Virus record (IMG/VR): IMGVR_UViG_3300010368_000051
Span: 1 to 32,432 of that record
DNA from: a virus
Length of the DNA stretch: 32,432 nucleotides
Direction: 5' to 3' (one strand)
The notes under the pieces were generated by a model. The model had not been told where the DNA came from, made no database searches, and was given only the letters and a program-made list of their open reading frames with translations. Of this stretch, positions 4,588 to 32,088 are shown piece by piece. The translations under genes and the position numbers were made by a program. The stretch's first letter is position 1, and each line of letters starts with the position of its first letter.

Positions 4588-5703
4588 TTAAATGCCGCCG
4601 ACCGTGAGCTTGTTGCCGTCAAGCAATCCGTCACGGTGGCTTTCGATCATGACAGCTGTCTTGAGCTGCCGCAGGTATTGTTTGGCGATGAGCGAATATG
4701 CATCCTCACCGGTCTGTCGATACGCAAAGTACGCCGCCCACAGCGGTTTGTCAACCATGGTCTGCACAGCGAACGCAAAATCCTTTGGGGACATGTCAAA
4801 TGCGTTGGCCTTCTCGACAAACCCTGTCAGCTTATCCGCCCGGCCCTGAATGGATGACCGAAGCTTCGACGCATATTCACCGATCCAGACCTTGCGGTCG
4901 TCATCCAGCATCGGGATGAGATCATCCAGCTGGTTGTTCAGAATGACTTCGATGATCCGGCGTTCAGAACCCGCCAAGTCGATGCAGCGGTGAAGGGCGA
5001 CATACTCATCAGCCTTGATCTTCACACGGTGACCATCAGGCCATACAAGGACAACGCCCTCATCACCCTTCAACTCTCGGACACTTTGCACGAAATTCTC
5101 AAGCACAAAATCACACTCGGTGATCAGCTTGATCTGCCGAGGGACGATGGACAGGTAATTACCGGTCACATTGTTGCGAACAGCCAACAGGCGCAGTTCG
5201 GACTTCTCATATGGAAGCACGATACGATTTGTGGGCGAGGTGAATTCATAGATCGGAGTGTAACCGGTTTCCATGTAATTGATCATCTCACGGCGATCCC
5301 ATTCCAGCATGTCAACTTCGTGCAATGCCTGCACAGCGACATCGGACAGACCCTTGCGGGTCATGAAGTGCAGCTCGCCATTGAGCATGACAGGGTGGAT
5401 CATCGAGCCATCGAGTTTGGTCTGGACCGAGATCGGCTCACACCAGTCAAGCGCTTCCATGGAGGATTCCGGGCGCTCATTGAGATTGAAGAATTTGTGG
5501 AATGGCCGAGCAAGAATCTTCCCGTCCAGTCCAAATTTCAGGCCACGGCCTTCAAGATGAATTGGCTTGGTAAAGGTTTCGGGTGAAGAAAACACGTAAT
5601 CGATACATGTGCCCCATTCACGCTCAAGGATAACGAAACCCGGAGTGTCCTTGAACTCATGCACAATGTCATCGAGGTGATTGATGATTGGGAACTTGTT
5701 CAT
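4588..5703 (-). CDS. rnlA: T4 RNA ligase 1-like tRNA repair ligase
   Basis: 371 residues, close to T4 RnlA. RPFHKFFNLNE (66-76) is the hallmark N-terminal motif of the Rnl1 family. TKLDGSM gives acceptor Lys96 (T4 uses Lys99). EGVVLVW and VKIKADEY are motifs IV and V. In T4 this enzyme reseals tRNA cut by host anticodon nucleases, after end healing by kinase-phosphatase, which is encoded directly upstream here. The start at 5703 has GGAGA six bases before it. A strong sigma70-like promoter ends about 30 bases upstream. Confidence 0.95.
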   Translation of the reverse strand: MNKFPIINHLDDIVHEFKDTPGFVILEREWGTCIDYVFSSPETFTKPIHLEGRGLKFGLDGKILARPFHKFFNLNERPESSMEALDWCEPISVQTKLDGSMIHPVMLNGELHFMTRKGLSDVAVQALHEVDMLEWDRREMINYMETGYTPIYEFTSPTNRIVLPYEKSELRLLAVRNNVTGNYLSIVPRQIKLITECDFVLENFVQSVRELKGDEGVVLVWPDGHRVKIKADEYVALHRCIDLAGSERRIIEVILNNQLDDLIPMLDDDRKVWIGEYASKLRSSIQGRADKLTGFVEKANAFDMSPKDFAFAVQTMVDKPLWAAYFAYRQTGEDAYSLIAKQYLRQLKTAVMIESHRDGLLDGNKLTVGGI

Positions 5704-5731
5704 AGGACTTCTCCGGGTTGCGATAGACTTC

Positions 5732-5759
5732 ATATTACAGGATCATGAGATCATGTCAA
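5732..5759 (-). promoter_or_regulatory. Sigma70-like promoter for RNA ligase
   Basis: Minus-strand TTGACA, 16 bases, TAATAT. It overlaps the stop codon of the kinase-phosphatase gene and points at the RNA ligase gene. Confidence 0.75.
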
Positions 5760-6748
5760 CTGATATATTCAAACACAGACACGAATGGGAGATCATCACC
5801 TGCAAGCGCATGTTTCTTGGATGACTGGAATGTCATGTGATGTTTCGTGATGATCTCCGGATTGGTTGTGGTGCTCGATGGATCATAGCTTTTCAGCTTT
5901 TCGTCCAGCGGGCGATCAATGATCACATAGTTCACATTGACTTCACCAGTATCGGCGCCTACAGCCGCAAGAAGTTTCTTGCGATCACCAGCACGGAGAT
6001 TGGTGGCGTCAAACTGGACATCCAGTCCGGCATCAAGCCGAGCCTTGGTAATTGCATGCGCAGCTGTGAATGTCGTATGAAACCCTTCGGGAGTATATGC
6101 CCGCTTGGCATAGTTCACACCACCGAATTGAATGGAGCGGATCGTGTCGGTGGACACGATTGAGCTGCGAGGAAATCCTTGATCTTTGAGCCACGAAGAC
6201 TTCCCGGCGCCGGATGGGCCGATCAGGACACTCAGGAGTGGCTTGCGTGGACGCTTTGGTGCGGCGGGTGCATTGGTATCAAAGTCGCCCGGGGCGACCT
6301 GAAAGCAGGTCACACCCTCTTCACGCCACATATCAACAACACACTGCCGATCATCATAGACGACATCCGGAGCACAGCCGTTCGCCCGGGCTTCATTGAG
6401 CCATTCACGCTTGATCGTGACATCGGATCGATAGTCAGTGCTCGAACGCATGTTCCCGATGAGATCACGGGCTGCAACCATATCCAGAGTGGGGGTGTAG
6501 AGTGTGCCGATATGCTGATCGAGCCAGATCGCCGTCTTGAGCATGACCGCATCGCTGCGGCCTGACCAGATTTCGACATTGTGGCCCATATCAAAGTGTG
6601 CCTGCAGAGCCTTGATCACCGGAATGTTCGGAAGGTCTTTGTCACATGCCTCGAAGAAGCTATCCCAGTCCCGGGCGCCATCACGGACATAGTGTGTCCG
6701 GTGGTCAATCAGGGCAAGGGTGCCATCCAAATCAAACACGAAATTCAT
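5756..6748 (-). CDS. pseT: Polynucleotide kinase-phosphatase, phosphatase domain first
   Basis: 330 residues. The N-terminal domain begins MNFVFDLDGTLA, a HAD phosphatase motif with Asp6 and Asp8 as nucleophile and acid. It continues with WSGRSD and YDDR motifs. The C-terminal domain has a P-loop GPSGAGKSS at 177-185 and a DATN segment typical of phage kinases. It removes 3' phosphates and phosphorylates 5' hydroxyls, preparing broken tRNA for RNA ligase 1. The domain order is reversed relative to T4 PseT (kinase first) and resembles the animal enzyme. The start at 6748 has GGAGA five bases upstream. Longer starts would run into the promoter. Confidence 0.93.
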   Translation of the reverse strand: MNFVFDLDGTLALIDHRTHYVRDGARDWDSFFEACDKDLPNIPVIKALQAHFDMGHNVEIWSGRSDAVMLKTAIWLDQHIGTLYTPTLDMVAARDLIGNMRSSTDYRSDVTIKREWLNEARANGCAPDVVYDDRQCVVDMWREEGVTCFQVAPGDFDTNAPAAPKRPRKPLLSVLIGPSGAGKSSWLKDQGFPRSSIVSTDTIRSIQFGGVNYAKRAYTPEGFHTTFTAAHAITKARLDAGLDVQFDATNLRAGDRKKLLAAVGADTGEVNVNYVIIDRPLDEKLKSYDPSSTTTNPEIITKHHMTFQSSKKHALAGDDLPFVSVFEYIS

Positions 6749-6775
6749 AATACTCTCCAATTCAATTGATGGCCC

Positions 6776-6803
6776 ATCATACAGGACCACTCCCAGATGT
6801 CAA
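6776..6803 (-). promoter_or_regulatory. Sigma70-like promoter for kinase-phosphatase
   Basis: Minus-strand TTGACA, 16 bases, TATGAT. It stands back to back with the plus-strand late box at 6808. Confidence 0.8.
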
Positions 6804-6807
6804 CCGG

Positions 6808-6815
6808 TATAAATA
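6808..6815 (+). promoter_or_regulatory. T4-type late promoter TATAAATA for the virion gene pair
   Basis: Exact TATAAATA on the plus strand, 30 bases before the first codon of the only plus-strand structural genes. It matches the T4 late consensus recognised by the phage sigma factor gp55. Position and gene type agree. Confidence 0.8.
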
Positions 6816-6845
6816 ATAGAAACACATTAACCCCAAGGAATTTAC

Positions 6846-7127
6846 ATGTCAGCTCTCATTACAGGATCATTCACTGGCACCGGCCAATCTAATTCAAAAT
6901 TCATCGTGCGCAATTTCAACGTATCGATCCTGTTTGGTGCTGCGGTCGGCACAGTCCAGCTGCGACGGTCATTCGATGATGGATCGACATGGGAAGTGGT
7001 TGCATCATATACGGGTGACACCGCAACATATGTGTTCGAGCCAGAGCTGCAGGTACTATACGAACTCAATTGCTCGGCATATACATCGGGCACAATCACA
7101 TACAGAATAGGTGGGAGCGGTATCTAA
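6846..7127 (+). CDS. Small beta-rich virion-type protein
   Basis: 93 residues. It reads like the phage family 'TGQS...F.V.NFNVSILFG...GTVQLRRSFDDGSTW...YELNCSAYTSGTITYRI', small beta-sandwich proteins found among tail, fibre or capsid genes. It starts at ATG 6846 after AAGGA. The stop overlaps the next start (TAATG). Being alone on the plus strand behind a late promoter supports a structural role. Exact position in the virion unknown. Confidence 0.7.
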   Translation: MSALITGSFTGTGQSNSKFIVRNFNVSILFGAAVGTVQLRRSFDDGSTWEVVASYTGDTATYVFEPELQVLYELNCSAYTSGTITYRIGGSGI

Positions 7128-7678
7128 TGCAAGAAATAACTCTCACGGATGCTGACGGGAACCGGATAGTTGTTGACAATTATTCCGGCGCTCTATCAGT
7201 TATGGATGTTGCACACTACCACATCCACGAAGGGCTATTCTATACGATATCTCGAACAGAACTAGCGCTGGCCGATAATGCCAGCATTATGTTCTATATC
7301 GTGCCGAATCAACTCCGGCTGCATTTGCGGGTCAGTGCCCTATCAGGCGGCGATGGCATGCTTGAGTTGTTCGAAAATCCAACAGTATCTGCAAATGGCA
7401 CGGCACAGGTTGGCATCAACCGGAATAGATATTCGGCAAATGTTCCGGACTCTGCGATGTACTATGGGCCGACTGTCACCGGCGATGGGACACGAATCTT
7501 TGATGCAATTTCGCCCGGGGGATATAAGAATTTCAGCACAGGCGGTGAGTTCGGACTCACTGGTGAATATGTACTGAACCATGACAGAACGTATCTGGCC
7601 CGTATGACAAATTTGTCAGGACAAGCAGCTCCAATTGCTCTTATCATGGACTGGTATGAGAATCCCGGGTACTATTAG
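7127..7678 (+). CDS. Virion-type structural protein (HYHIHEG family)
   Basis: 183 residues starting MQEITLTDADGNRI. The pattern VAHYHIHEGLFYT, then LELFENPTVSANGTAQ and a NRNRYSAN segment, is one I recall from conserved phage structural or tail-associated proteins of beta architecture. It starts by TAATG coupling to the preceding gene. The stop overlaps the stop of the convergent minus-strand gene by three bases, leaving no room for a terminator. Confidence 0.7.
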   Translation: MQEITLTDADGNRIVVDNYSGALSVMDVAHYHIHEGLFYTISRTELALADNASIMFYIVPNQLRLHLRVSALSGGDGMLELFENPTVSANGTAQVGINRNRYSANVPDSAMYYGPTVTGDGTRIFDAISPGGYKNFSTGGEFGLTGEYVLNHDRTYLARMTNLSGQAAPIALIMDWYENPGYY

Positions 7679-7953
7679 ACCTCGTCATATCCTAGATAGA
7701 TGATGTTCATCATTGTCTGCAAAGCCGCCTTTGTGCGATCATGCATACGTTGATCCTGTTCGAAGATGTCATTGATGATATTGGTCAACAGCAGCGCATT
7801 GACCTGAGCACCGTCATCAAGTGCAACGGACATGTCAAGGGCCGTCGCAACATCAGCAGCATTCAAAATGACAATCTTGTCACGGTCCAGCTTGTATTCA
7901 ATTACAGCTGGGCCGATTTTGCTTGTGTAGTGTTGTGAAAAATCTGCGGACAT
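7675..7953 (-). CDS. Hypothetical protein (92 aa)
   Basis: Starts MSADFSQHYTSKIGPAVIEY, with AGGAG eight bases before ATG 7953. Mostly helical, with an acidic middle and a Met/Asp-rich end. No motif recognised. Convergent with the plus-strand virion gene. Confidence 0.65.
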   Translation of the reverse strand: MSADFSQHYTSKIGPAVIEYKLDRDKIVILNAADVATALDMSVALDDGAQVNALLLTNIINDIFEQDQRMHDRTKAALQTMMNIIYLGYDEV

Positions 7954-7954
7954 G

Positions 7955-8119
7955 TCATTCACTCCTTCGATAAGTGATTTTGAAATTACCGAACATGAAG
8001 TCGATCAGCAGTGCGCCGATAACAGCGAGCCAGATCGGGATCGTTCCGAGTTCGGGGTTGTGAAAGATGACGGCCAAATGGTCGTCCATACAATACCACA
8101 GGATAATAGCAAGAATCAT
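7955..8119 (-). CDS. Small membrane protein (54 aa)
   Basis: Starts MILAIILWYCMDDHLAV and has two hydrophobic segments ending in a short basic tail (FKITYRR). A GAGG site precedes the ATG. Longer starts would overlap the upstream winged-helix gene. Function unknown. Confidence 0.6.
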   Translation of the reverse strand: MILAIILWYCMDDHLAVIFHNPELGTIPIWLAVIGALLIDFMFGNFKITYRRSE

Positions 8120-8123
8120 AACA

Positions 8124-8408
8124 TCAGTCCTCTTTGACCCACCGACGATTTTCGTCCATGTGTACGGTTGGAGAAACGGACCACCGTTGGGTCCAGTTTG
8201 GTAATTGGCCATCGGCCCGGGCTTCGTGGAATTCCAGAGCGCCCTTGTTGACCAGTGATTTCAGAACCAGCTGGACTGCCCGTATATGCTTGACCGAGCG
8301 CTGGCGAGTAACTTCCCACAGATCAACGGCATTGTCGCCGTTCGCAGCATGAGCCACAGCATCCATAACATCAACTTGATTGTCGGTGAGTGTGAAGGAC
8401 TTGGTCAT
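8124..8408 (-). CDS. Small winged-helix-like protein
   Basis: 94 residues starting MTKSFTLTDNQVDVMDAVAH. The helix-helix-helix pattern followed by LKSLVNKGALEFHEA resembles a winged helix-turn-helix fold, suggesting DNA binding, perhaps as a regulator. This is inference from pattern only. GGAGA lies five bases before ATG 8408, and a sigma70-like promoter is directly upstream, so it is probably early. Confidence 0.6.
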   Translation of the reverse strand: MTKSFTLTDNQVDVMDAVAHAANGDNAVDLWEVTRQRSVKHIRAVQLVLKSLVNKGALEFHEARADGQLPNWTQRWSVSPTVHMDENRRWVKED

Positions 8409-8440
8409 GGGCGTCTCCTCGGGTTTCAAACTATGACGTA

Positions 8441-8469
8441 TGTATACCCGAGGAGTTATTCCATGTCAA
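8441..8469 (-). promoter_or_regulatory. Sigma70-like promoter
   Basis: Minus-strand TTGACA, 17 bases, TATACA, 32 bases before the start of the winged-helix-like gene. Confidence 0.75.
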
Positions 8470-8472
8470 GCG

Positions 8473-9882
8473 CTAGATTGCAGCACGTTCCCGAATTTTA
8501 TTCAGGGTCTCGTCGGTCTTGCAAACACCCGGGCGAAGGCCATCGAAGGATGGGTCATATACGTACACATCAACCAGATCGTTGACATATGGCCCATTCT
8601 CATCCCGGGACGTGACACCGGCATATACGGCCTGACGGCCACGCTTGGATGTCTTGCCGCCGTGCACAGGATTCTTGTACACATCCTGCCATGCACCATT
8701 GATGAAAATCGCATTGGCCTTCATGGCGAACTGTAGCGTATCCCGATTGACACCCTGTAGAAGAGCGCCGCCCATTCCGAACACGACATTGTCAGCCGCA
8801 AAACCGGCTTTGGCGAGATTCGCCAAAATGGTATCGATGGAGTCGAGATTGATGCCGTCGCCCTGCAGAACCCGGATGAATGGTGGCAGAACCTTGAAAC
8901 CCTTGGAGTTTTCGGTGGTCCCGAATTTACCGGCCAGAAGCTTGACGCATTTAACCGGAACGATAGTCGGATCACCAGAGTCCGGGCGGACAACCAATCG
9001 AGAGCCACGGTCCCCAAGGGCGACGACTTCATCATACAATTCTTCGCCGTAGATCGTGGCACAGGCATTATAGATATCGTAGCTATCCGAGACGATACTT
9101 ACGATGGCGCCGGGCTCGCAGGATTCAATCATCCGACGATACATGGCCGCCTCGTGTTCTTGGCCCCAGCTGGTGACGGTCGAGTGCTCGGTTGCAATGA
9201 CGCTGTATGCTGGCATCTCTTCGCCAGTGTTGTAGAACTGGCGGGCATATTCAAGACCCTCAAGGGTGTCAGTACCCATGAAGTTCACGATGTGAGCCAT
9301 GCCACCGATACCGGCAGACTCACTTGACGAAACGCCTCGGGCGCCGAAGTCATGCAACATGAAGTCGATTGCACCGGGAGCATCACTGGTGTCTTCCAGA
9401 TATGCGGCCAGAAGCTTCTTGATTTCCCGGCTCTGGGTGCAGACAGTGGTTGGATACCAGATGCTGCGCAGGAGAGCGGTCTCGATGAATGAGGTGAGCC
9501 ATGGCACGGATGGATCGGTGTTCATGACCTGAACCAGACAATTGCGCAGGCCGATTACGGTGCCCTCGGGCAGTGCCTGAATGCGCAAGGGGAGCATACC
9601 GCCACAAATATTGACAATGTACTCCCAGCCTTCACGATTGAAAGGCACGCCATGAGCGGCGGCACGCTCGGCGGCATAGTCAACATCAGCTTGGGTGAGC
9701 GGTGTCGTCAGATAGTTCTTGATGAATGCCTGAATGCCAAGAAACACTGTTTCCTTCCATCCGGCATCACACCCCCGGGCCTCGATATACGAACTCACAT
9801 ATTGGGCACCATCCGGCAGTTGTTGGAAGTGTCCGAGTTTATAAGAATCGGCACGCATAAGGGGATTTGGAATAAATGTCAT
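8473..9882 (-). CDS. nadV: Nicotinamide phosphoribosyltransferase (NadV/NAMPT)
   Basis: 469 residues, usual NAMPT length. It opens MTFIPNPLMRADSYKLGHF and holds HDFGARG (near 200), GTDTLEG, SVIATEHST and RPDSGDP, all hallmarks of the family. The late GGALLQGVNRDT segment is typical too. It makes NMN from nicotinamide and PRPP in the cytoplasm. The NMN adenylyltransferase-Nudix gene at 11408 would complete a two-step NAD salvage route. The start at 9882 has GGAGA eight bases before it. Upstream in-frame codons are not protein-like. Confidence 0.96.
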   Translation of the reverse strand: MTFIPNPLMRADSYKLGHFQQLPDGAQYVSSYIEARGCDAGWKETVFLGIQAFIKNYLTTPLTQADVDYAAERAAAHGVPFNREGWEYIVNICGGMLPLRIQALPEGTVIGLRNCLVQVMNTDPSVPWLTSFIETALLRSIWYPTTVCTQSREIKKLLAAYLEDTSDAPGAIDFMLHDFGARGVSSSESAGIGGMAHIVNFMGTDTLEGLEYARQFYNTGEEMPAYSVIATEHSTVTSWGQEHEAAMYRRMIESCEPGAIVSIVSDSYDIYNACATIYGEELYDEVVALGDRGSRLVVRPDSGDPTIVPVKCVKLLAGKFGTTENSKGFKVLPPFIRVLQGDGINLDSIDTILANLAKAGFAADNVVFGMGGALLQGVNRDTLQFAMKANAIFINGAWQDVYKNPVHGGKTSKRGRQAVYAGVTSRDENGPYVNDLVDVYVYDPSFDGLRPGVCKTDETLNKIRERAAI

Positions 9883-9964
9883 TTTGTCAGTCTCCACTGA
9901 TCTAGGGGTTTGCCTTACTGGCGGTATAGCGGATATCAACAATCGAGTCAATATCCGAATTATG

Positions 9965-10468
9965 TTATTTCGGGGCGGCTGCAACCTTGGAGGAGAAATA
10001 GTCCGCCCGGAAGATATCGTCAATTCCCCAGCTGGTATATTTCAGTTCGTTATCGAGGAATTTGTTCATCGTGGCAAGATCGTCAATATGAATCGATGTC
10101 ACGAATGCATTACGGGCGGTATCGACTTCAACTGTGCACGCATCATCCACGATCTTCTGTGCGGCGTTATCAGCGTCGGCTCGGGTATTGGATTCGAGAT
10201 TGATTGCCGCTGCAGCATGTTGGGCAGGGCGCTGATCATCGAAGAAATCGAGGGTGACATCATTTACACCATTCTGCTTGGCAATGAGGGCGTACCAAAG
10301 AATGCCCGCCGATAATGTCGGTGTGACAACAGCATGCTTATATGGCTTTCGGACAACGTCCTTATGCTTGCAATGAACAGCGTTCTTGGCCCGAGACCAT
10401 GCTTGTATATACTGACGGGCAACTTCAACAGTGCGCTCTTCTTCACGGCGGCGTTTACATCCAAACAT
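9965..10468 (-). CDS. Hypothetical protein (167 aa)
   Basis: Starts MFGCKRRREEERTVEVARQY with AAGGA eight bases before. A basic N-terminus is followed by a mixed alpha/beta body with an acidic FDDQRPAQ region and a second half rich in Asp and Ala. No family recognised. In line with the next genes upstream, spaced by ten bases. Confidence 0.65.
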   Translation of the reverse strand: MFGCKRRREEERTVEVARQYIQAWSRAKNAVHCKHKDVVRKPYKHAVVTPTLSAGILWYALIAKQNGVNDVTLDFFDDQRPAQHAAAAINLESNTRADADNAAQKIVDDACTVEVDTARNAFVTSIHIDDLATMNKFLDNELKYTSWGIDDIFRADYFSSKVAAAPK

Positions 10469-10478
10469 ATCAAATTCC

Positions 10479-10817
10479 TTAGATTGCGCCTGCAAGACGC
10501 AGACGGCCTTTGCGGCTGACTTCCACAAACACCTGATCCCCATTGGACCAAGTGTGTTCTTTTACTTCAACGAGGCGCCGACTGATAAGACGGCGAAATG
10601 GTTGCTCGGTAACCCGAGCTTGGCCGAAGCCGTTAAGATTGATGCCACCGTTTGCGGCCAGAAACCGGAGAGCCTCAAGCTCATCCGTGATCGGGGCGGT
10701 GTACTTGACAACGATTGGCGCTGGCTCGATGTGGCGAATGTCATCAATCGTGATCCGAGCCGTCACCACTGCCATGTTGATCATGTCGTGGATCATGTTG
10801 CGAGCTTGGTTCATCAT
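10479..10817 (-). CDS. Hypothetical protein (112 aa)
   Basis: Start chosen at MMNQARNMIHDM because AGGA is eight bases upstream. The C-terminal half (FLAANGGINLNGFGQARVTEQPFRRL...) resembles a small winged-helix-like or beta-hairpin fold, but no family is certain. The first 70 bases overlap the end of the next upstream gene in another frame, a long overlap for this genome. Confidence 0.6.
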   Translation of the reverse strand: MMNQARNMIHDMINMAVVTARITIDDIRHIEPAPIVVKYTAPITDELEALRFLAANGGINLNGFGQARVTEQPFRRLISRRLVEVKEHTWSNGDQVFVEVSRKGRLRLAGAI

Positions 10818-11016
10818 GGCGATCATCCTCATACTGCAGTGGGTGCGGGACCATTGGAATATTTGAAGCCATTTGGTATATGCGGTGCTTCATGTCCTGC
10901 GCTGTCAGTACATTACCATATTCATCACACAAGTCAAGTGTGTTGATGCCATTTAATATAGCCTCTTTCATATGGTATTTTCCGAGGAGATAGTTTCGAT
11001 CAAATCGATTAGACAT
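10744..11016 (-). CDS. Hypothetical protein with His/Asp-rich tail
   Basis: 90 residues. The first 65 look ordinary and the last 24 are rich in His, Asp and Ser, which falls exactly where the gene overlaps the following one. The tail is probably a by-product of overlap coding. No strong ribosome site precedes ATG 11016. It overlaps the upstream stop, so coupling is likely. An internal ATG at 10971 is an alternative start. Confidence 0.5.
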   Translation of the reverse strand: MSNRFDRNYLLGKYHMKEAILNGINTLDLCDEYGNVLTAQDMKHRIYQMASNIPMVPHPLQYEDDRHDEPSSQHDPRHDQHGSGDGSDHD

Positions 11017-11407
11017 CTGTAACGTGCCGTATACTCTCTAATATGCTGGTGGCCTCCGTCAAGTATCTGCCATGTACCACAGCTTCCCAGTCATGCCCAT
11101 TTGGGGCAAAAAAGTCAACCTCCTCGGCCCATATTGCGATGTCTGCCCGGTGTGCGAATATGTGATATAACAGCTCCGCAAAATGTTTTTCGAAGAACAT
11201 ATGTTGGGGTCCGGCGTGTCCAGACACAGAATCCATAGAAGACATAAGGGCTACCGCATGATCCATGTATGTGCGATGGACAGTCATGCCCCATACGCCA
11301 CGGTCTGTCCGCTTACACTCGATGATTTCGGCATGCCATTCCTTCACATCGACGGGCGATCCGTACTCGTCAATCAGTTCAGCGGCAAGGCGCTGTAAAT
11401 AGCTCAC
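11009..11407 (-). CDS. Hypothetical protein (132 aa), GTG start
   Basis: Starts with GTG at 11407, directly after the NadM-Nudix stop, preceded by GGGG six bases away. The body is helical, with an NGHDWEAVVHGRYL segment near the end. Not recognised. It is in the same transcription unit as NadM-Nudix. Confidence 0.6.
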   Translation of the reverse strand: MSYLQRLAAELIDEYGSPVDVKEWHAEIIECKRTDRGVWGMTVHRTYMDHAVALMSSMDSVSGHAGPQHMFFEKHFAELLYHIFAHRADIAIWAEEVDFFAPNGHDWEAVVHGRYLTEATSILESIRHVTDV

Positions 11408-12451
11408 TTACATCCCCGCCGTAAGGCGAAGGATCATGAAGGAGTGATCCTCAAAGAAGTCTGCAGGCTTCACTTCACTCAGAGGCATCCAGAATGCCCG
11501 GGCCGCATCATCGCTGCCCTTGACCTTCGGAAGGCTGTCTTCATTCGGAAGATGGATCAGATATGCATTGGTAATAACTCGGGCACGCTTCGACCGGCCC
11601 GGATCATCGAAGACCCGGCTTGTCTTGATGTTGCTCCGCAGAACACGATCAGAGCGATCAATACCGGTTTCTTCCCGCAGCTCACGCAGCATTGCATCTT
11701 CGAGGGTCTCGTGGAGATTGATGTGACCACCCGGGCATGCCAGAAGACCCATGCCGGGACGGTTCTTGCGTTCGACCACAAGGACATGCCCATTCATGAC
11801 AACAACCGCATCAACCGTCACGACATTGACATCGAATTTCTTCGGGTCATAGTTCTGATCAAAGTCCCACTCGGGAGCCAGTTCTCGCAAGATCGCCTGA
11901 TTTTCACGATCCCATATAATCGACGGGCTTCCGAGACCGACAAGATCACGGTTACCATAAAACTGATCGGGCTCCAACCATGGGCATGATTGTCCGAGGC
12001 GCTTGTAGAAGAATTCACGGATGCGAGTGGATGCGAATGTATCGAAGCCAGCCGGAAGCAAATCCGAATCCCATTCAGGAAAGAACCCGAGATAGTTGCT
12101 CGTATGGTCCTTGTTATGGCCGGTGAGGATGAAGGTAGCATCCGGGTCATTGGCGGTCTCTGTGACCCTGTGACGGACGCTGGCGGCCCACTCGGCGTCC
12201 GAGTAGGTCATGTCATCGATTGGACAGAAGGACACACGCTTACTATCAATCCCGTTATGGGGATAGTACATGGCCTTGGTCCAGAACTTGACACGCTCTT
12301 CGTATGTAAATGGGTTGGACGTTCGCCGTCCAAGGTTCGCCGATCCGATACCGATGATAACACGGTCGTGGCGTTCGAGGGCACGTTTGACAACTTGCAT
12401 GTGGCCGATGTGCACGGGCTGAAAGCGCCCAATAAAAACTGCATAATCCAT
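11408..12451 (-). CDS. nadM: Bifunctional NMN adenylyltransferase / Nudix hydrolase
   Basis: 347 residues. The N-terminal nucleotidyltransferase domain has GRFQPVHIGH at 8-17 and the ATP-binding STRIREFF at 141-148. The C-terminal Nudix box runs Gly242 to Ile264 with the exact G-x5-E-x7-REL-x-EE-x-G-I pattern. This is the NadM-Nudix architecture known from Synechocystis and large phages such as KVP40. The first domain adenylates NMN to NAD, and the second hydrolyses ADP-ribose-type compounds. With NadV it forms a complete nicotinamide salvage route. Start 12451 has GGAG eight bases upstream. A TATAAATA box lies 47 bases upstream, suggesting late expression as well. Confidence 0.96.
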   Translation of the reverse strand: MDYAVFIGRFQPVHIGHMQVVKRALERHDRVIIGIGSANLGRRTSNPFTYEERVKFWTKAMYYPHNGIDSKRVSFCPIDDMTYSDAEWAASVRHRVTETANDPDATFILTGHNKDHTSNYLGFFPEWDSDLLPAGFDTFASTRIREFFYKRLGQSCPWLEPDQFYGNRDLVGLGSPSIIWDRENQAILRELAPEWDFDQNYDPKKFDVNVVTVDAVVVMNGHVLVVERKNRPGMGLLACPGGHINLHETLEDAMLRELREETGIDRSDRVLRSNIKTSRVFDDPGRSKRARVITNAYLIHLPNEDSLPKVKGSDDAARAFWMPLSEVKPADFFEDHSFMILRLTAGM

Positions 12452-12497
12452 TGTGCAAACTCCATTGCAACATGAGGGTGACCTTACTGGTCGATTG

Positions 12498-12505
12498 TAT
12501 TTATA
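12498..12505 (-). promoter_or_regulatory. T4-type late promoter box TATAAATA
   Basis: Exact minus-strand TATAAATA in the gap between a small membrane gene and NadM-Nudix, pointing at the latter. Confidence 0.65.
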
Positions 12506-12509
12506 CGAA

Positions 12510-12665
12510 TTATTTTGACTTGTCGAATCTCTTCGAGATGACAACGATCCCGGCCCACAGATACATTGCGACAAATAGCCAGAGCCAAACCGTCGCAAAG
12601 ATTGAAAGAGTCGGGGTGGTCATAATGATAATGAGGAAAATTGCGCCGAGGAACAAATTGATCAT
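12510..12665 (-). CDS. Small membrane protein (51 aa)
   Basis: Starts MINLFLGAIFLIIIMT and contains two hydrophobic helices (residues 3-22 and 24-45) and a basic tail. AGGA stands seven bases before the ATG. Function unknown; the topology fits many small phage inner-membrane proteins. Confidence 0.65.
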   Translation of the reverse strand: MINLFLGAIFLIIIMTTPTLSIFATVWLWLFVAMYLWAGIVVISKRFDKSK

Positions 12666-25192: not shown

Positions 25193-26071
25193 TTACTGAA
25201 CCGGGCGCATGAAGAATGGAAGACCACTCGACTCGCCACCAGATGAGCTGTACTGTGAAAGAGCACCATCCCACTTCTCGATTGCATTCAGCATCAGGAT
25301 ATCCGGATTTTCCCGGAGTGCCGCACCCTGAATGCGAAGGGCATCTGCCTCGGCAGTGGCCTCCAGAATTCGAGCTTGGGCTCGACCAGTGGCTTCCGCA
25401 ATCTCGATCTGAGCTTGGGCAGTCGCCGTTGCGATTTGATTTTCTCGCTGGGCGGCTTCTTGATCGGCTTCGACCTTCATCTCAATGGCTCGTTGAACCT
25501 GTGGAGGAAGACGGAGGGACCCGATCCAGTAGATGTCATTCACTTGGATACCTTGGGGTGCAAGGCGTTCTCGAACAGCCTCTTCAACATCTTCCATGAT
25601 GTCAACTCGACCGGCGCCGTAAATGTATGCGGCGTTGTGTGCGGATGCCGAGTTGTTCAGGGCATCCCGGACAATATTGCGGATGCGCTGATCCGTGATC
25701 TCTTCGATGCCAAGACGATATGTCTCGAACAGGTCAGATGCACGATCCGGGATGATTTGATATGAGATGCCAATGTCGGCATTGATATCCAGACCATCGG
25801 AGTCTTGGAAGCTGAACGATTCGTTGTTTGGCGAGCCCTCATCAATGGCGGCGGTCCAAACATAGTTCTGTTCGAACGTTGGGAACAGGTACATGTCAGT
25901 ACCCATGCCGAGCCATTCATAGCCGACACCGATTTCTTCGGCCTGAACGCCGGAATCGGAACCGAGATTGTGGACCTTGACACCGACATAACCGGCATGA
26001 ACCTGACCACAAGCGGCGAGAGATAGAAGGGATAGCCCAACAATGGCGCCCTGTACAAATTTCTTCATCAT
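25193..26071 (-). CDS. SPFH/prohibitin-family lipoprotein
   Basis: 292 residues. A signal peptide with lipobox LSLAAC (Cys21) leads into an SPFH/Band 7 domain (about 25-215: GYVGVKV, DINADIGISYQI, RLAPQGIQVNDI). A long Ala/Glu/Gln helix follows (215-265), typical of oligomerising SPFH proteins, with a Gly/Ser-rich tail. It would form membrane-bound rings in the cell envelope. Phage SPFH proteins are known but their role is unclear; lysis timing or superinfection effects are possibilities. A strong terminator ends the transcript. Confidence 0.9.
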   Translation of the reverse strand: MMKKFVQGAIVGLSLLSLAACGQVHAGYVGVKVHNLGSDSGVQAEEIGVGYEWLGMGTDMYLFPTFEQNYVWTAAIDEGSPNNESFSFQDSDGLDINADIGISYQIIPDRASDLFETYRLGIEEITDQRIRNIVRDALNNSASAHNAAYIYGAGRVDIMEDVEEAVRERLAPQGIQVNDIYWIGSLRLPPQVQRAIEMKVEADQEAAQRENQIATATAQAQIEIAEATGRAQARILEATAEADALRIQGAALRENPDILMLNAIEKWDGALSQYSSSGGESSGLPFFMRPVQ

Positions 26072-26648: not shown

Positions 26649-26656
26649 ATGAATTG

Positions 26657-26664
26657 TATTTATC
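26657..26664 (-). promoter_or_regulatory. Late-promoter-like GATAAATA before the tRNA cluster
   Basis: One base off the TATAAATA core, nine bases before tRNA-Pro, the first tRNA of a run of four. Weak evidence by itself. Confidence 0.3.
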
Positions 26665-26682
26665 AGAACTTACCGTTCTGGT

Positions 26683-26748
26683 TTACGATGTCTTGAAATG
26701 CGTCAAGCGATTCGTCATCGTATAATCTTCCCAGACAAAATCATTCAT
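26683..26748 (-). CDS. 21-residue leader-like peptide
   Basis: MNDFVWEDYTMTNRLTHFKTS with GGAGA six bases before the ATG, between a sigma70-like promoter and the tRNA run. It may be a translated leader or a gene remnant. Confidence 0.4.
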   Translation of the reverse strand: MNDFVWEDYTMTNRLTHFKTS

Positions 26749-26779
26749 GATGCATCTCCGTGTGCGTTTCAATATACAC

Positions 26780-26807
26780 ATAGTACCAGATGCGCAGGCC
26801 ATGTCAA
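26780..26807 (-). promoter_or_regulatory. Sigma70-like promoter for the Pro-Gly-Leu tRNA run
   Basis: Minus-strand TTGACA, 16 bases, TACTAT. It would transcribe the 21-codon frame and then four tRNA genes. Confidence 0.7.
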
Positions 26808-26861
26808 GCAAATAAACCGGGGTATTCTGTTGCAAGGATTATAAATCATATAAGTAGTTGT

Positions 26862-27443
26862 ATGATCACCAAACCTTTTACATATTTATTATACCACATC
26901 CCCTCGGGAAAATGGTATTATGGCGTAAAGTATGCCGTTGGGTGCAACCCAACCGATCTTTGGACCACGTATTTTTCTTCGTCTGAGCCGGTTAAGGCGC
27001 TTATAGAAGAATATGGTAAGGACTCGTTCAAAGTCGAAGTTAGACGAACTTTTAATACTACAGAAGAAGCATTATATTGGGAAAGCAGGGTTTTGTGTCG
27101 TATGAAAGTTGTAACCAATCCAATGTGTCTTAATCGATCAATCGGGGGAGGCACTGGATTTTATAGCAATGAGCGTAGTGCAGAAACCCGCCAGAAAATT
27201 TCTGACGGTGTTAAGAAATTTAATAAATTGAATCCTTCTAAAGTTAGCCGAGCAAGAACCAAAGGTGCAAAAACTTTCTGGAAGAACATGTCACCCGAAA
27301 CACGGGAACAGATTTTACGACAACGCAGAAATCAGAAAAATCCTATGAAAGGGAAAAAGCAAAGACGGGTTTCGTGTACAAAGTGCCGCCTAGAAACATC
27401 AATTAATGCTTTTACACGCCATATAAAAACGTGTAAAAATTGA
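26862..27443 (+). CDS. GIY-YIG homing endonuclease with C-terminal zinc finger
   Basis: 193 residues on the plus strand, against the direction of its neighbours. YLLYHIPSGKWYYGVKY is the GIY-YIG core in a known phage variant. YFSSSEPVKALIEEYGKDSF continues the domain, and Glu in LYWESRVL is the likely metal ligand. SAETRQKISDGVKKF is a NUMOD3-like DNA-binding repeat. CTKCRLETSINAFTRHIKTC near the end is a C2H2/C2HC-type finger. A/T-rich, so probably acquired. A TATAAATC box lies 15 bases before the ATG. The stop abuts the tmRNA gene, a likely insertion point. Confidence 0.88.
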   Translation: MITKPFTYLLYHIPSGKWYYGVKYAVGCNPTDLWTTYFSSSEPVKALIEEYGKDSFKVEVRRTFNTTEEALYWESRVLCRMKVVTNPMCLNRSIGGGTGFYSNERSAETRQKISDGVKKFNKLNPSKVSRARTKGAKTFWKNMSPETREQILRQRRNQKNPMKGKKQRRVSCTKCRLETSINAFTRHIKTCKN

Positions 27444-27445
27444 CG

Positions 27446-27880
27446 GGATTATGTTCCAACGCTCCCGCCGGGCGTGTATGACCTTACGCTGCTAGAGCAT
27501 AATCCATAGGTGCATTATCGTTAGATGCTGCATTTACGTTTGTTGAACCTGTAACGGGCTTCACCCGGCACTCTCAGATTTACCTACTCATACCCCGTCG
27601 ATCCCATTTCGCCCCCATCAAGAACACTTGGCACCCTTCAACGGGCTGAGCGCCACTTACTTAAGGAGGCCGATCACGTCTGATCGGGGTCTTAAGCTTG
27701 ATCCAAGTGCTCATGGTGGAGGCGGGGAACTTCGATGTCCCCGTCCGGCTGTATTTTCGCTCGTCCTCAAACGAGTGCAGTTATTACGGATTTCTCCGCA
27801 ATTCTATTGGTACTGGGGCGAGGTACTGATCCTCATTCTCTTGGCTCACAACCAAGCGCATCACCTTTATGCTTGTCCCA
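27446..27880 (-). ncRNA. ssrA: Two-piece (circularly permuted) tmRNA
   Basis: Read on the minus strand. The acceptor piece comes first (about 27880 to 27714) and ends T-arm-like GGGGACATCGAAGTTCCCC, then CGCCTCC-A-CCA. After a 97-base spacer, the coding piece starts at 27616 with GGGGGCG, then AAATGGGATCGACGGGG, the usual tmRNA 5' signature. GGGGGCG pairs with CGCCTCC over 7 bp, including the G3-U70 pair that specifies alanine. The tag frame (27531-27484) encodes AASNDNAPMDYALAA and TAA, a classical proteolysis tag. GGATTATG/CATAATCC closes the tag helix. It rescues stalled ribosomes with SmpB. The outer ends are approximate. Confidence 0.93.
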
Positions 27881-27890
27881 GCATTGTTAT

Positions 27891-27967
27891 TGGTACGTGC
27901 ACTAGGACTCGAACCTAGACTCTACAGATTAGAAGTCTGTTGCATTGTCCAGTTATGCTATGCACGT
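27891..27967 (-). tRNA. tRNA-Arg (anticodon TCT), CCA encoded
   Basis: Acceptor ACGTGCA/TGCACGT, anticodon stem ACAGA/TCTGT with loop CTTCTAA, T-arm CTAGG-TTCGAGT-CCTAG, A73 and CCA. A TATAAATA (27967-27974) touches its 5' base, too close to make the full tRNA; it could serve the tmRNA that follows. Confidence 0.93.
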
Positions 27968-29220: not shown

Positions 29221-29664
29221 CTACACTACGCCGTTGACGAAGTCAAGCTCCTTTTTGTTGAATGCCGCAACATATGCAGCAGCCTCATCATCGTCAAAGA
29301 TCGCATGAATATCATGCCAGCTTAGCTCAATCATCTGACCGGTGTCCGCAACAATGAACACATAATCAGTTTCCCAACTGTCCTGCGGCCCGTAATTCTT
29401 CATGGCCTTCTCGACATATTCATCGAGACCGAAGAACTGGGCGTGCACACATCCGATATAGATCAGCTTGCGGGCATACTTCTCATGAACACCAGTCTCG
29501 TAACGGAACCAATCAACACCATCGATTATCTGAGATATCTTCTTATGGGTCGGTGTGATCAGTGCCCGGATATCCCATAACTCGGCACCGGGTTCGATCT
29601 CGACTTCGATATGGTCGGCATCCCATTTGTAAGGGAGTGATGTATCAAGCGTAATGAGTTTCAT
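29221..29664 (-). CDS. Hypothetical acidic protein (147 aa)
   Basis: Starts MKLITLDTSLPYKWDADHIE; mixed alpha/beta with an acidic C-terminus. No family recognised. It overlaps the upstream gene by ATGA. Confidence 0.65.
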   Translation of the reverse strand: MKLITLDTSLPYKWDADHIEVEIEPGAELWDIRALITPTHKKISQIIDGVDWFRYETGVHEKYARKLIYIGCVHAQFFGLDEYVEKAMKNYGPQDSWETDYVFIVADTGQMIELSWHDIHAIFDDDEAAAYVAAFNKKELDFVNGVV

Positions 29665-30939: not shown

Positions 30940-32052
30940 TTATGCCAGAAGTCGGCGGGCCATGTCCGTATACCCGATTTTCTTCATCTTGAGATCGACA
31001 TATGTGTCATTGTGACCCGGAAGTCGATATGTGAATGTCTCGTCCTTCTCACAGTACCCAAACAGATGATTGGATTCTACCACAAGATCGCCATGGCTGT
31101 CATCTTCGTTACATTCCAAGAAGGTGTTCCAGAGTGCCTGATCTTCGGCGGATAACCCACGAATGGAGTTGCTGTTGAGATAATAGTCCGTGTCATTGAT
31201 GTCATTCATCTCGAACTCTTTTGAAAGAATGTGCTTCTTCCCGGCCAGTTCGACTGTCACTTCATACGAGCCCGCAACGGTCTCGGGAATGATATTCAGA
31301 TACTCGACCACTTCGGCCAGTGTCTCGGAATATCGGTTCATCTCTTCGACCGAAGCCGCCAGCATGTCGAAATTGAATGCCGAGAAGACAGATGCATACC
31401 GGACGATCTCTTCGATGTTGTCCTTGTTGTCAAGACGATCTTGGCAGTATTCCCGAACAAACCGAGCGTCGAGATTCTTGAATGAGAGGGAATAATACAT
31501 CCGGCCCGGGCGGTTCTTGAGAAACTCAGAAACCTTCCATGTGGCATTTGTCGTGATGACAAACATCTTCTTGGTCGGATACACCCCGTCGAACAGCGTC
31601 AGAATTTTCGACTGGTCTGGATAGACCTTCTCGAACTCATCGAACAAGATGATCGCCGCAGCGTCGATGTTCTGGATGAACTTGTTGAACGTCTCACCGA
31701 AATACGGCTGGTTGATGACGATTGTTGGATACCCAAGCTCGGCGCCCTTGGCGGACAGAAGCTTCGCCAACAGGGTCTTACCGCTGCCCTTGATGCCATC
31801 GAGATGAACGCCGGTGGAAAGCTTGCGCTGGGCGAATGTGTTAAGGATACGATCAGCCTTTGCGGAACAGTCACCGTACAGTTTCTCGGGCAGCACAAAG
31901 TCGCTGATGGGCTGCAGGGAATACTTGTCTTGACGTTCGTCATACACCACCGAATAGGTCCGCACCGGGAGCGTATCGTGGATCGTGAAACTCTCACCCG
32001 AAAAGATTTCGAAGTTGTTACCGGACTGCAGAATGTGGGATTTTTCGGTCAT
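30940..32052 (-). CDS. AAA+ ATPase
   Basis: 370 residues. Walker A GIKGSGKT at 86-93, Walker B IILFDEF at about 134-140, then TTNATWK (sensor 1) and a LKNRPGRMYYSL arginine-finger-like segment. This is the single AAA+ core used by many phage and host remodelling ATPases. The C-terminal 130 residues are specific to this protein. The substrate is unknown. GGAGA lies seven bases before ATG 32052. A structured leader and a tRNA gene lie upstream. Confidence 0.88.
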   Translation of the reverse strand: MTEKSHILQSGNNFEIFSGESFTIHDTLPVRTYSVVYDERQDKYSLQPISDFVLPEKLYGDCSAKADRILNTFAQRKLSTGVHLDGIKGSGKTLLAKLLSAKGAELGYPTIVINQPYFGETFNKFIQNIDAAAIILFDEFEKVYPDQSKILTLFDGVYPTKKMFVITTNATWKVSEFLKNRPGRMYYSLSFKNLDARFVREYCQDRLDNKDNIEEIVRYASVFSAFNFDMLAASVEEMNRYSETLAEVVEYLNIIPETVAGSYEVTVELAGKKHILSKEFEMNDINDTDYYLNSNSIRGLSAEDQALWNTFLECNEDDSHGDLVVESNHLFGYCEKDETFTYRLPGHNDTYVDLKMKKIGYTDMARRLLA

Positions 32053-32088
32053 GATATAGTTCTCCATTAATGTAATTAAAAGGCGTGT

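Follow-up and report, generated by a model that had tools for sequence, protein, structure and literature searches.

A divergent permuted tmRNA gene in a phage contig, with a GIY-YIG homing endonuclease gene abutting its 3′ end

Two-piece tmRNA genes have already been described in phages: the Methylophilales phage Melnitz carries a two-piece ssrA, and among 133 unique tmRNA structures from phages, 53 have been called two-piece (PMC9004378). Alpha-, beta- and cyano-type sequences went into the merged Rfam model of permuted tmRNAs, RF04321, whose underlying tmRNA database counts 79 bacteriophage tmRNAs among its entries (PMC11915505). The Melnitz gene (MZ577097.1; PMC9004378) resembles the gene analysed here in being phage-encoded, permuted and of alpha type, in its tag ending DYALAA, and in that SmpB was not found in the phage record. 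It differs in scoring above the alpha_tmRNA cutoff (106.7 bits), in its GGCAGUA T-loop, in an intervening segment (IVS) with a small open reading frame (ORF) and a reported glutamine riboswitch, and in having no homing endonuclease gene (HEG) adjoining the tmRNA in the annotated region. Rhodobacter phage RcSimone-Hastad (L220), an alphaproteobacterial phage, likewise has a permuted gene with a non-standard T-loop, UGCGAUA; unlike the present gene, it exceeds the alpha_tmRNA cutoff (97.7 bits), and no tRNA or HEG is annotated in the 3-kb stretch viewed. The RcSimone-Hastad tmRNA (MW677525.1:32190-32477, minus strand; 108.7 bits, tag read as ANDNVRMDAQALAA) is absent from the record annotation.

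Since such genes are known, and are abundant among related contigs (26 of 50), the novelty implied by the initial annotation for a permuted phage tmRNA does not hold, and the gene is a divergent addition to a known kind rather than a new kind. What is unusual in this copy is a long T-arm, a GIY-YIG gene abutting the 3′ end and, probably, a second tmRNA 3′ end beyond that gene.

Identity and structure of the tmRNA gene

The window, the whole 32,432-base IMG/VR record, carries phage genes for Rnl1, Pnkp, NAMPT, NadM/NUDIX, a DNA ligase-like protein and a phage ATPase. On its minus strand, positions 27807-27442 form a circularly permuted (two-piece) tmRNA gene, as identified by RF04321 and by a reading of the structure. 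RF04321 matches over its full model length (window 27778-27484; 79.5 bits, cutoff 47, E 6.9e-14) and exceeds the cutoff in only 1 of 14 control genomes, which, together with a structure that is conserved in relatives through compensatory changes, indicates more than a chance match. The individual type models do not accept the gene: alpha_tmRNA (RF01849) gives 32.9 bits against a cutoff of 50, as a partial match of positions 86-169 only, beta_tmRNA (RF01850) gives 21.4 bits against 84, and cyano_tmRNA (RF01851) yields no match in the window gene. The initial annotation had looked to the alpha and cyano models for confirmation; with the first below its cutoff and the second without a match, it is only the merged permuted model that upholds the call. 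ARAGORN, run on the window, reported no tmRNA and missed the adjacent tRNA-His gene; two-piece phage tmRNA genes can escape this program. The features of the gene and of the tRNA genes in front of it are as follows; L040 and L107 are phage contigs described below.

27891..27967, minus strand: tRNA-Arg(TCT), next upstream gene of the array (ARAGORN and Rfam)
27808..27883, minus strand: tRNA-His(GTG), directly upstream, its CCA abutting the tmRNA (RF00005, 31.6 bits)
27714..27807, minus strand: tmRNA acceptor piece, CCA end at 27714, 5′ end approximate at about 27807 (RF04321; alignment with L040 and other alpha-type phage genes)
27802-27783, minus strand: 5′ hairpin of the acceptor piece
27773..27778, minus strand: P2 strand GCACTC, pairing with GAGTGC 27573-27568 and linking the two pieces (covariation)
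27725..27742, minus strand: T-arm GGGGACATCGAAGTTCCC, 18 nt against the usual 17 (alignment with other phage genes)
27617..27713, minus strand: IVS of 97 nt, predicted to be removed in the mature RNA (z -4.1)
27712-27703 and 27631-27622, minus strand: pairing of the IVS ends, GAGCACTTGG with CCAAGTGTTC
27442..27616, minus strand: tmRNA coding piece, with 5′ acceptor strand, D-like motif, P2, PK1 region, tag, P5 and 3′ hairpin
27616-27610 and 27724-27718, minus strand: 7-bp acceptor stem GGGGGCG/CGCCTCC with G3-U70
27603-27593, minus strand: D-like 5′ motif GATCGACGGGG
27484..27531, minus strand: tag reading frame, resume codon GCA to stop TAA, AASNDNAPMDYALAA
27477..27508, minus strand: P5-like helix at the tag end, TATGG 27508-27504 with TCATA 27481-27477 (placed as in L040, L107 and Melnitz by direct reading; energy test)
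27442..27469, minus strand: 3′ hairpin of 7 bp, GGCGGGA 27469-27463 with TCCCGTC 27448-27442 (folding energy)

The order of the parts is permuted, with the acceptor half and its CCA first, the IVS between and the coding half, beginning GGGGGCGAAATGGGATCGACGGGG at 27616, after it; the acceptor strand CGCCTCC runs on into ACCA, ending at 27714. A phage-encoded two-piece tmRNA within the tRNA cluster, as initially proposed, is thus borne out, as are the acceptor stem with its alanine determinant, the 5′ motif and an intact tag frame and stop with an Ala-rich end. The interval first given, 27446-27880, does contain the tmRNA; it also takes in tRNA-His. The tag codons (GCA GCA TCT AAC GAT AAT GCA CCT ATG GAT TAT GCT CTA GCA GCG TAA) predict a peptide with the C-terminal end NDNAPMDYALAA, a DYALAA ending in which the ALAA end is kept. 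Pairing of the IVS ends, with different bases, is also found by direct reading in L040, RcSimone-Hastad and L107. The T-arm has one base more than those of the other aligned genes, and its loop, AUCGAA, matches neither UUCGA nor the alpha-type GGCAGUA or GGCGGUA; this odd arm could reflect divergence, beginning decay or an assembly error.

At the 3′ end, two layouts compete. In the alpha-type phage relatives compared, P5 closes the tag end beside the stop codon and is followed by a 3′ hairpin with the loop GNAACAGAA. The window has a 7-bp hairpin at the expected position, with GGAACAUAA in place of that loop (loop motif GGAACATAA); an nhmmer profile of the relatives' 3′ ends matches window 27473-27435 (E 0.017), and the hairpin is offset by 159 from the coding start, against 122-158 in the tabulated relatives. 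The tag-closing helix of the initial annotation, GGATTATG 27505-27498 with CATAATCC 27453-27446, exists as sequence; however, it is not conserved and competes with the P5 and 3′ hairpin common to the relatives, at nearly equal energy (-20.4 versus -20.0 kcal/mol). The layout with P5 and the 3′ hairpin was chosen from the comparison with relatives.

Relatives, distribution and host

The closest relative found is L040 (IMG/VR 3300022200_000111), whose tmRNA gene is clearly of alpha type (103.1 bits with RF01849). Its PK1 region and 5′ hairpin are near-identical to those of the window, its tmRNA has the same orientation, it encodes a related ATPase (49% identity), and adjoining its tmRNA is a gene weakly homologous (31% over 90 aa) to window gene 29221-29664. 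It differs in a standard 17-nt alpha T-arm, the tag ANTPAYNEGFALAA, an IVS of 136 nt and the lack of an HEG at the 3′ end. Pairs of the acceptor stem, P2a and P2c are kept between phages through compensatory changes. The acceptor stem is GGGGGCG/CGCCTCC in the window and GGGGACG/CGTCTCC in L040, P2a is CCG/CGG and CTG/CAG, respectively, the helix closing the IVS shows compensatory differences by direct reading, and the T-stem is largely altered with its pairing retained. In P2c, which joins the two pieces, 59 of 84 pairs are formed over 14 distinct rows, a value reached by none of 2,000 partner shuffles.

RF04321 scores above cutoff in 26 of 50 related IMG/VR records, defined as holders of relatives of the window ATPase (30940-32067) or of the protein at 25193-26071. 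When the type models were applied to 28 records, 16 scored above the cutoff of the beta model and 24 above that of the alpha model, with many in both sets; most of the permuted tmRNAs of the related records score higher with the beta than with the alpha model, so that tmRNA type differs between phages of the related group. A DNA-level search of the phage collection with a 22-kb stretch of the window gave no near match, and a plasmid search with the region returned only short pieces of tRNA-gene size, about 6-7% of the query among the matches listed. An exact 20-mer core match in Bacteroidales (L182) was rejected, as it lies in a protein-coding-like stretch without a tmRNA.

Several phage IVSs contain ORFs. 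In L107 (IMGVR_UViG_3300037458_000459, 9820-10400), the permuted tmRNA has an IVS of 551 nt with an ORF for a 193-aa protein resembling HNH endonucleases (phrog_10820, E 7e-4; Pfam HNH at 15.1 bits, under its cutoff); this ORF starts about 11 nt past the CCA, behind AAAGGA, and extends 39 nt into the coding piece. Smaller ORFs lie within or start in the IVS of L027 (97 aa), L004 (77 aa) and L219 (Melnitz; 54 aa), which suggests that the precursor may double as an mRNA.

The tmRNA was also expected to point to the host group. It does so in part: the order of the type scores (alpha 32.9 bits, beta 21.4, cyano none), taken with protein relatives that are mostly from alphaproteobacterial phages, lends moderate support to an alphaproteobacterial host. 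The nearest named phages are Ruegeria/Phaeobacter phages (Roseobacter group) for NAMPT and Caulobacter phages for Rnl1; for the ATPase, Ochrobactrum phage OC is among the best named matches at 49%, and a Microbacterium phage covers more at 45%. The RNA repair pair (Rnl1, Pnkp), NAMPT and NadM/NUDIX lie at window 4588-12598 on the minus strand, a set that other large phages are known to use for mending cleaved tRNA and for NAD salvage.

The homing endonuclease gene and a probable second 3′ end

Free-standing Seg endonucleases have been described beside phage tRNA genes (PMC2988022, PMC13096335), and boundaries of exchange are marked by phage nuclease genes (PMC10448857). Two features of the window lie beyond the coding piece:

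26862..27443, plus strand: SegE-like GIY-YIG homing endonuclease gene with NUMOD3 (PF19835, 37.1 bits, cutoff 25; PF07460, 26.3 bits, cutoff 20.4)
26817..26839, minus strand: probable second, displaced 3′ end of a tmRNA, ATCCTTGCAACAGAATACCCCGG (21/23 identity with the L040 3′ hairpin region)

The endonuclease gene, with both its GIY-YIG Seg domain and its NUMOD motif above the Pfam cutoffs, is antisense to the tmRNA and ends with its stop codon directly against the tmRNA 3′ end. Like T4 SegB and other free-standing Seg GIY-YIG genes (PMC2988022, PMC13096335), it is a Seg-type HEG in a phage tRNA cluster; it differs in being SegE-like by Pfam, in abutting a tmRNA and in the probable second tmRNA 3′ end beyond it. 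No report of a Seg-type endonuclease at a tmRNA was found in the literature searched, none of the 12 HEG relatives found has a tRNA or tmRNA called nearby, and Rfam gave nothing for a group I or II intron in 26650-27620 up to E 10.

On the far side of the endonuclease gene, ATCCTTGCAACAGAATACCCCGG is probably a second tmRNA 3′ end, judging from its similarity to L040; the window's next-best match to the same L040 region reaches 16/23. Insertion of the HEG inside the tmRNA gene, considered from the absence of the GCAACAGAA motif, was rejected, since the window's own 3′ hairpin is at the expected place. Because the profile of the relatives' 3′ ends finds this local hairpin, nothing is missing from the tmRNA gene, and the copy on the far side is an additional one. 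It is conceivable, as a tentative reading, that the GIY-YIG gene entered the tmRNA 3′ end together with a replacement end that restored the RNA, displacing the original 3′ end to the far side.

The 7-mer ATAATCC at 27452-27446 is repeated at 26842-26836. A sigma-70-type promoter-like match, TTGACA-16-TACTAT, lies at 26807-26780 on the minus strand, just past the probable second 3′ end and before the next tRNA group; promoter-like matches of this type are no commoner in the window than in shuffles.

Proposed function and alternatives

Taken as a whole, the gene is very probably a phage ssrA, permuted and alphaproteobacterial-like, working as a rescue RNA dependent on host SmpB; the RF04321 score, the conserved pairing between the pieces, the kinship with L040, the spread among related records and the ALAA end all argue for this, and the alpha_tmRNA score below its cutoff and the atypical T-arm count against it. 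By analogy with tmRNA biology, it would probably be co-transcribed with the preceding tRNA-Arg and tRNA-His genes, and host tRNA-processing enzymes would cleave behind the CCA (27714) and ahead of G1 (27616). The resulting acceptor and coding RNAs would be held together by the acceptor stem and P2 helices, whose pairing is conserved. Host AlaRS would charge the tmRNA through G3-U70, and host SmpB and EF-Tu would carry it to stalled ribosomes, where a tag with a DYALAA end, an ordinary type of degradation signal, would be added. The likely benefit would be ribosome rescue maintained during host shut-off or destruction of host RNA. The suggestion that the phage supplies its own ribosome rescue cannot be fully correct: searches of the window and of 38 phage records, complete genomes among them, turned up no SmpB, and host SmpB is presumably used.

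The same absence of a phage SmpB would suit a decoy that inhibits host trans-translation by competing for host SmpB, for which there is a precedent in the TLD-only tmRNA of mycobacteriophage DS6A, proposed to act in this way (PMC11915505, PMC4131195). A decoy would need neither the full tag frame with its degradation-type end nor the tag-proximal structures, all of which are kept; the intact tag module makes such a role improbable. Somewhat less improbable, though still unlikely, is a decaying gene, functional in an ancestor and reduced by the extra T-arm base and the HEG event at the 3′ end to a pseudogene or to a locus that carries the HEG. Decay would agree with the aberrant T-arm, the GGAACAUAA loop, the HEG abutting the 3′ end and an RF04321 score below those of all 26 above-cutoff relatives (99.9 bits or more). 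However, every stem still pairs, including the altered T-stem and the 3′ hairpin, and the tag frame and its stop are intact; the compensatory changes may, for their part, predate the arrival of the endonuclease. That the gene is a bacterial ssrA on a misassigned contig can be given almost no credence: the sequence is alpha-like, but it lies among phage genes (Rnl1, Pnkp, NAMPT, the phage ATPase, the homing endonuclease), L040, another phage contig, has the same tmRNA in the same orientation, and a 20-mer core search of GTDB genomes gave no tmRNA, its one match, L182, lying inside a protein-coding-like stretch.

Previously met mainly in marine and aquatic isolates, phage two-piece tmRNAs occur often in one large phage group (26 of 50 related contigs), in both beta-like and alpha-like types. 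As SmpB was not found, phages of this group seem to borrow host SmpB while bringing their own tag. Were the tentative account of the GIY-YIG gene true, a homing endonuclease would use a tmRNA as its site, as integrase islands do; together with the HNH-like gene in the L107 IVS, it suggests that phage two-piece tmRNAs may be recurrent homes for endonucleases. With the probable second 3′ end beyond the endonuclease gene, it becomes testable whether tmRNA genes serve homing endonucleases as safe sites.
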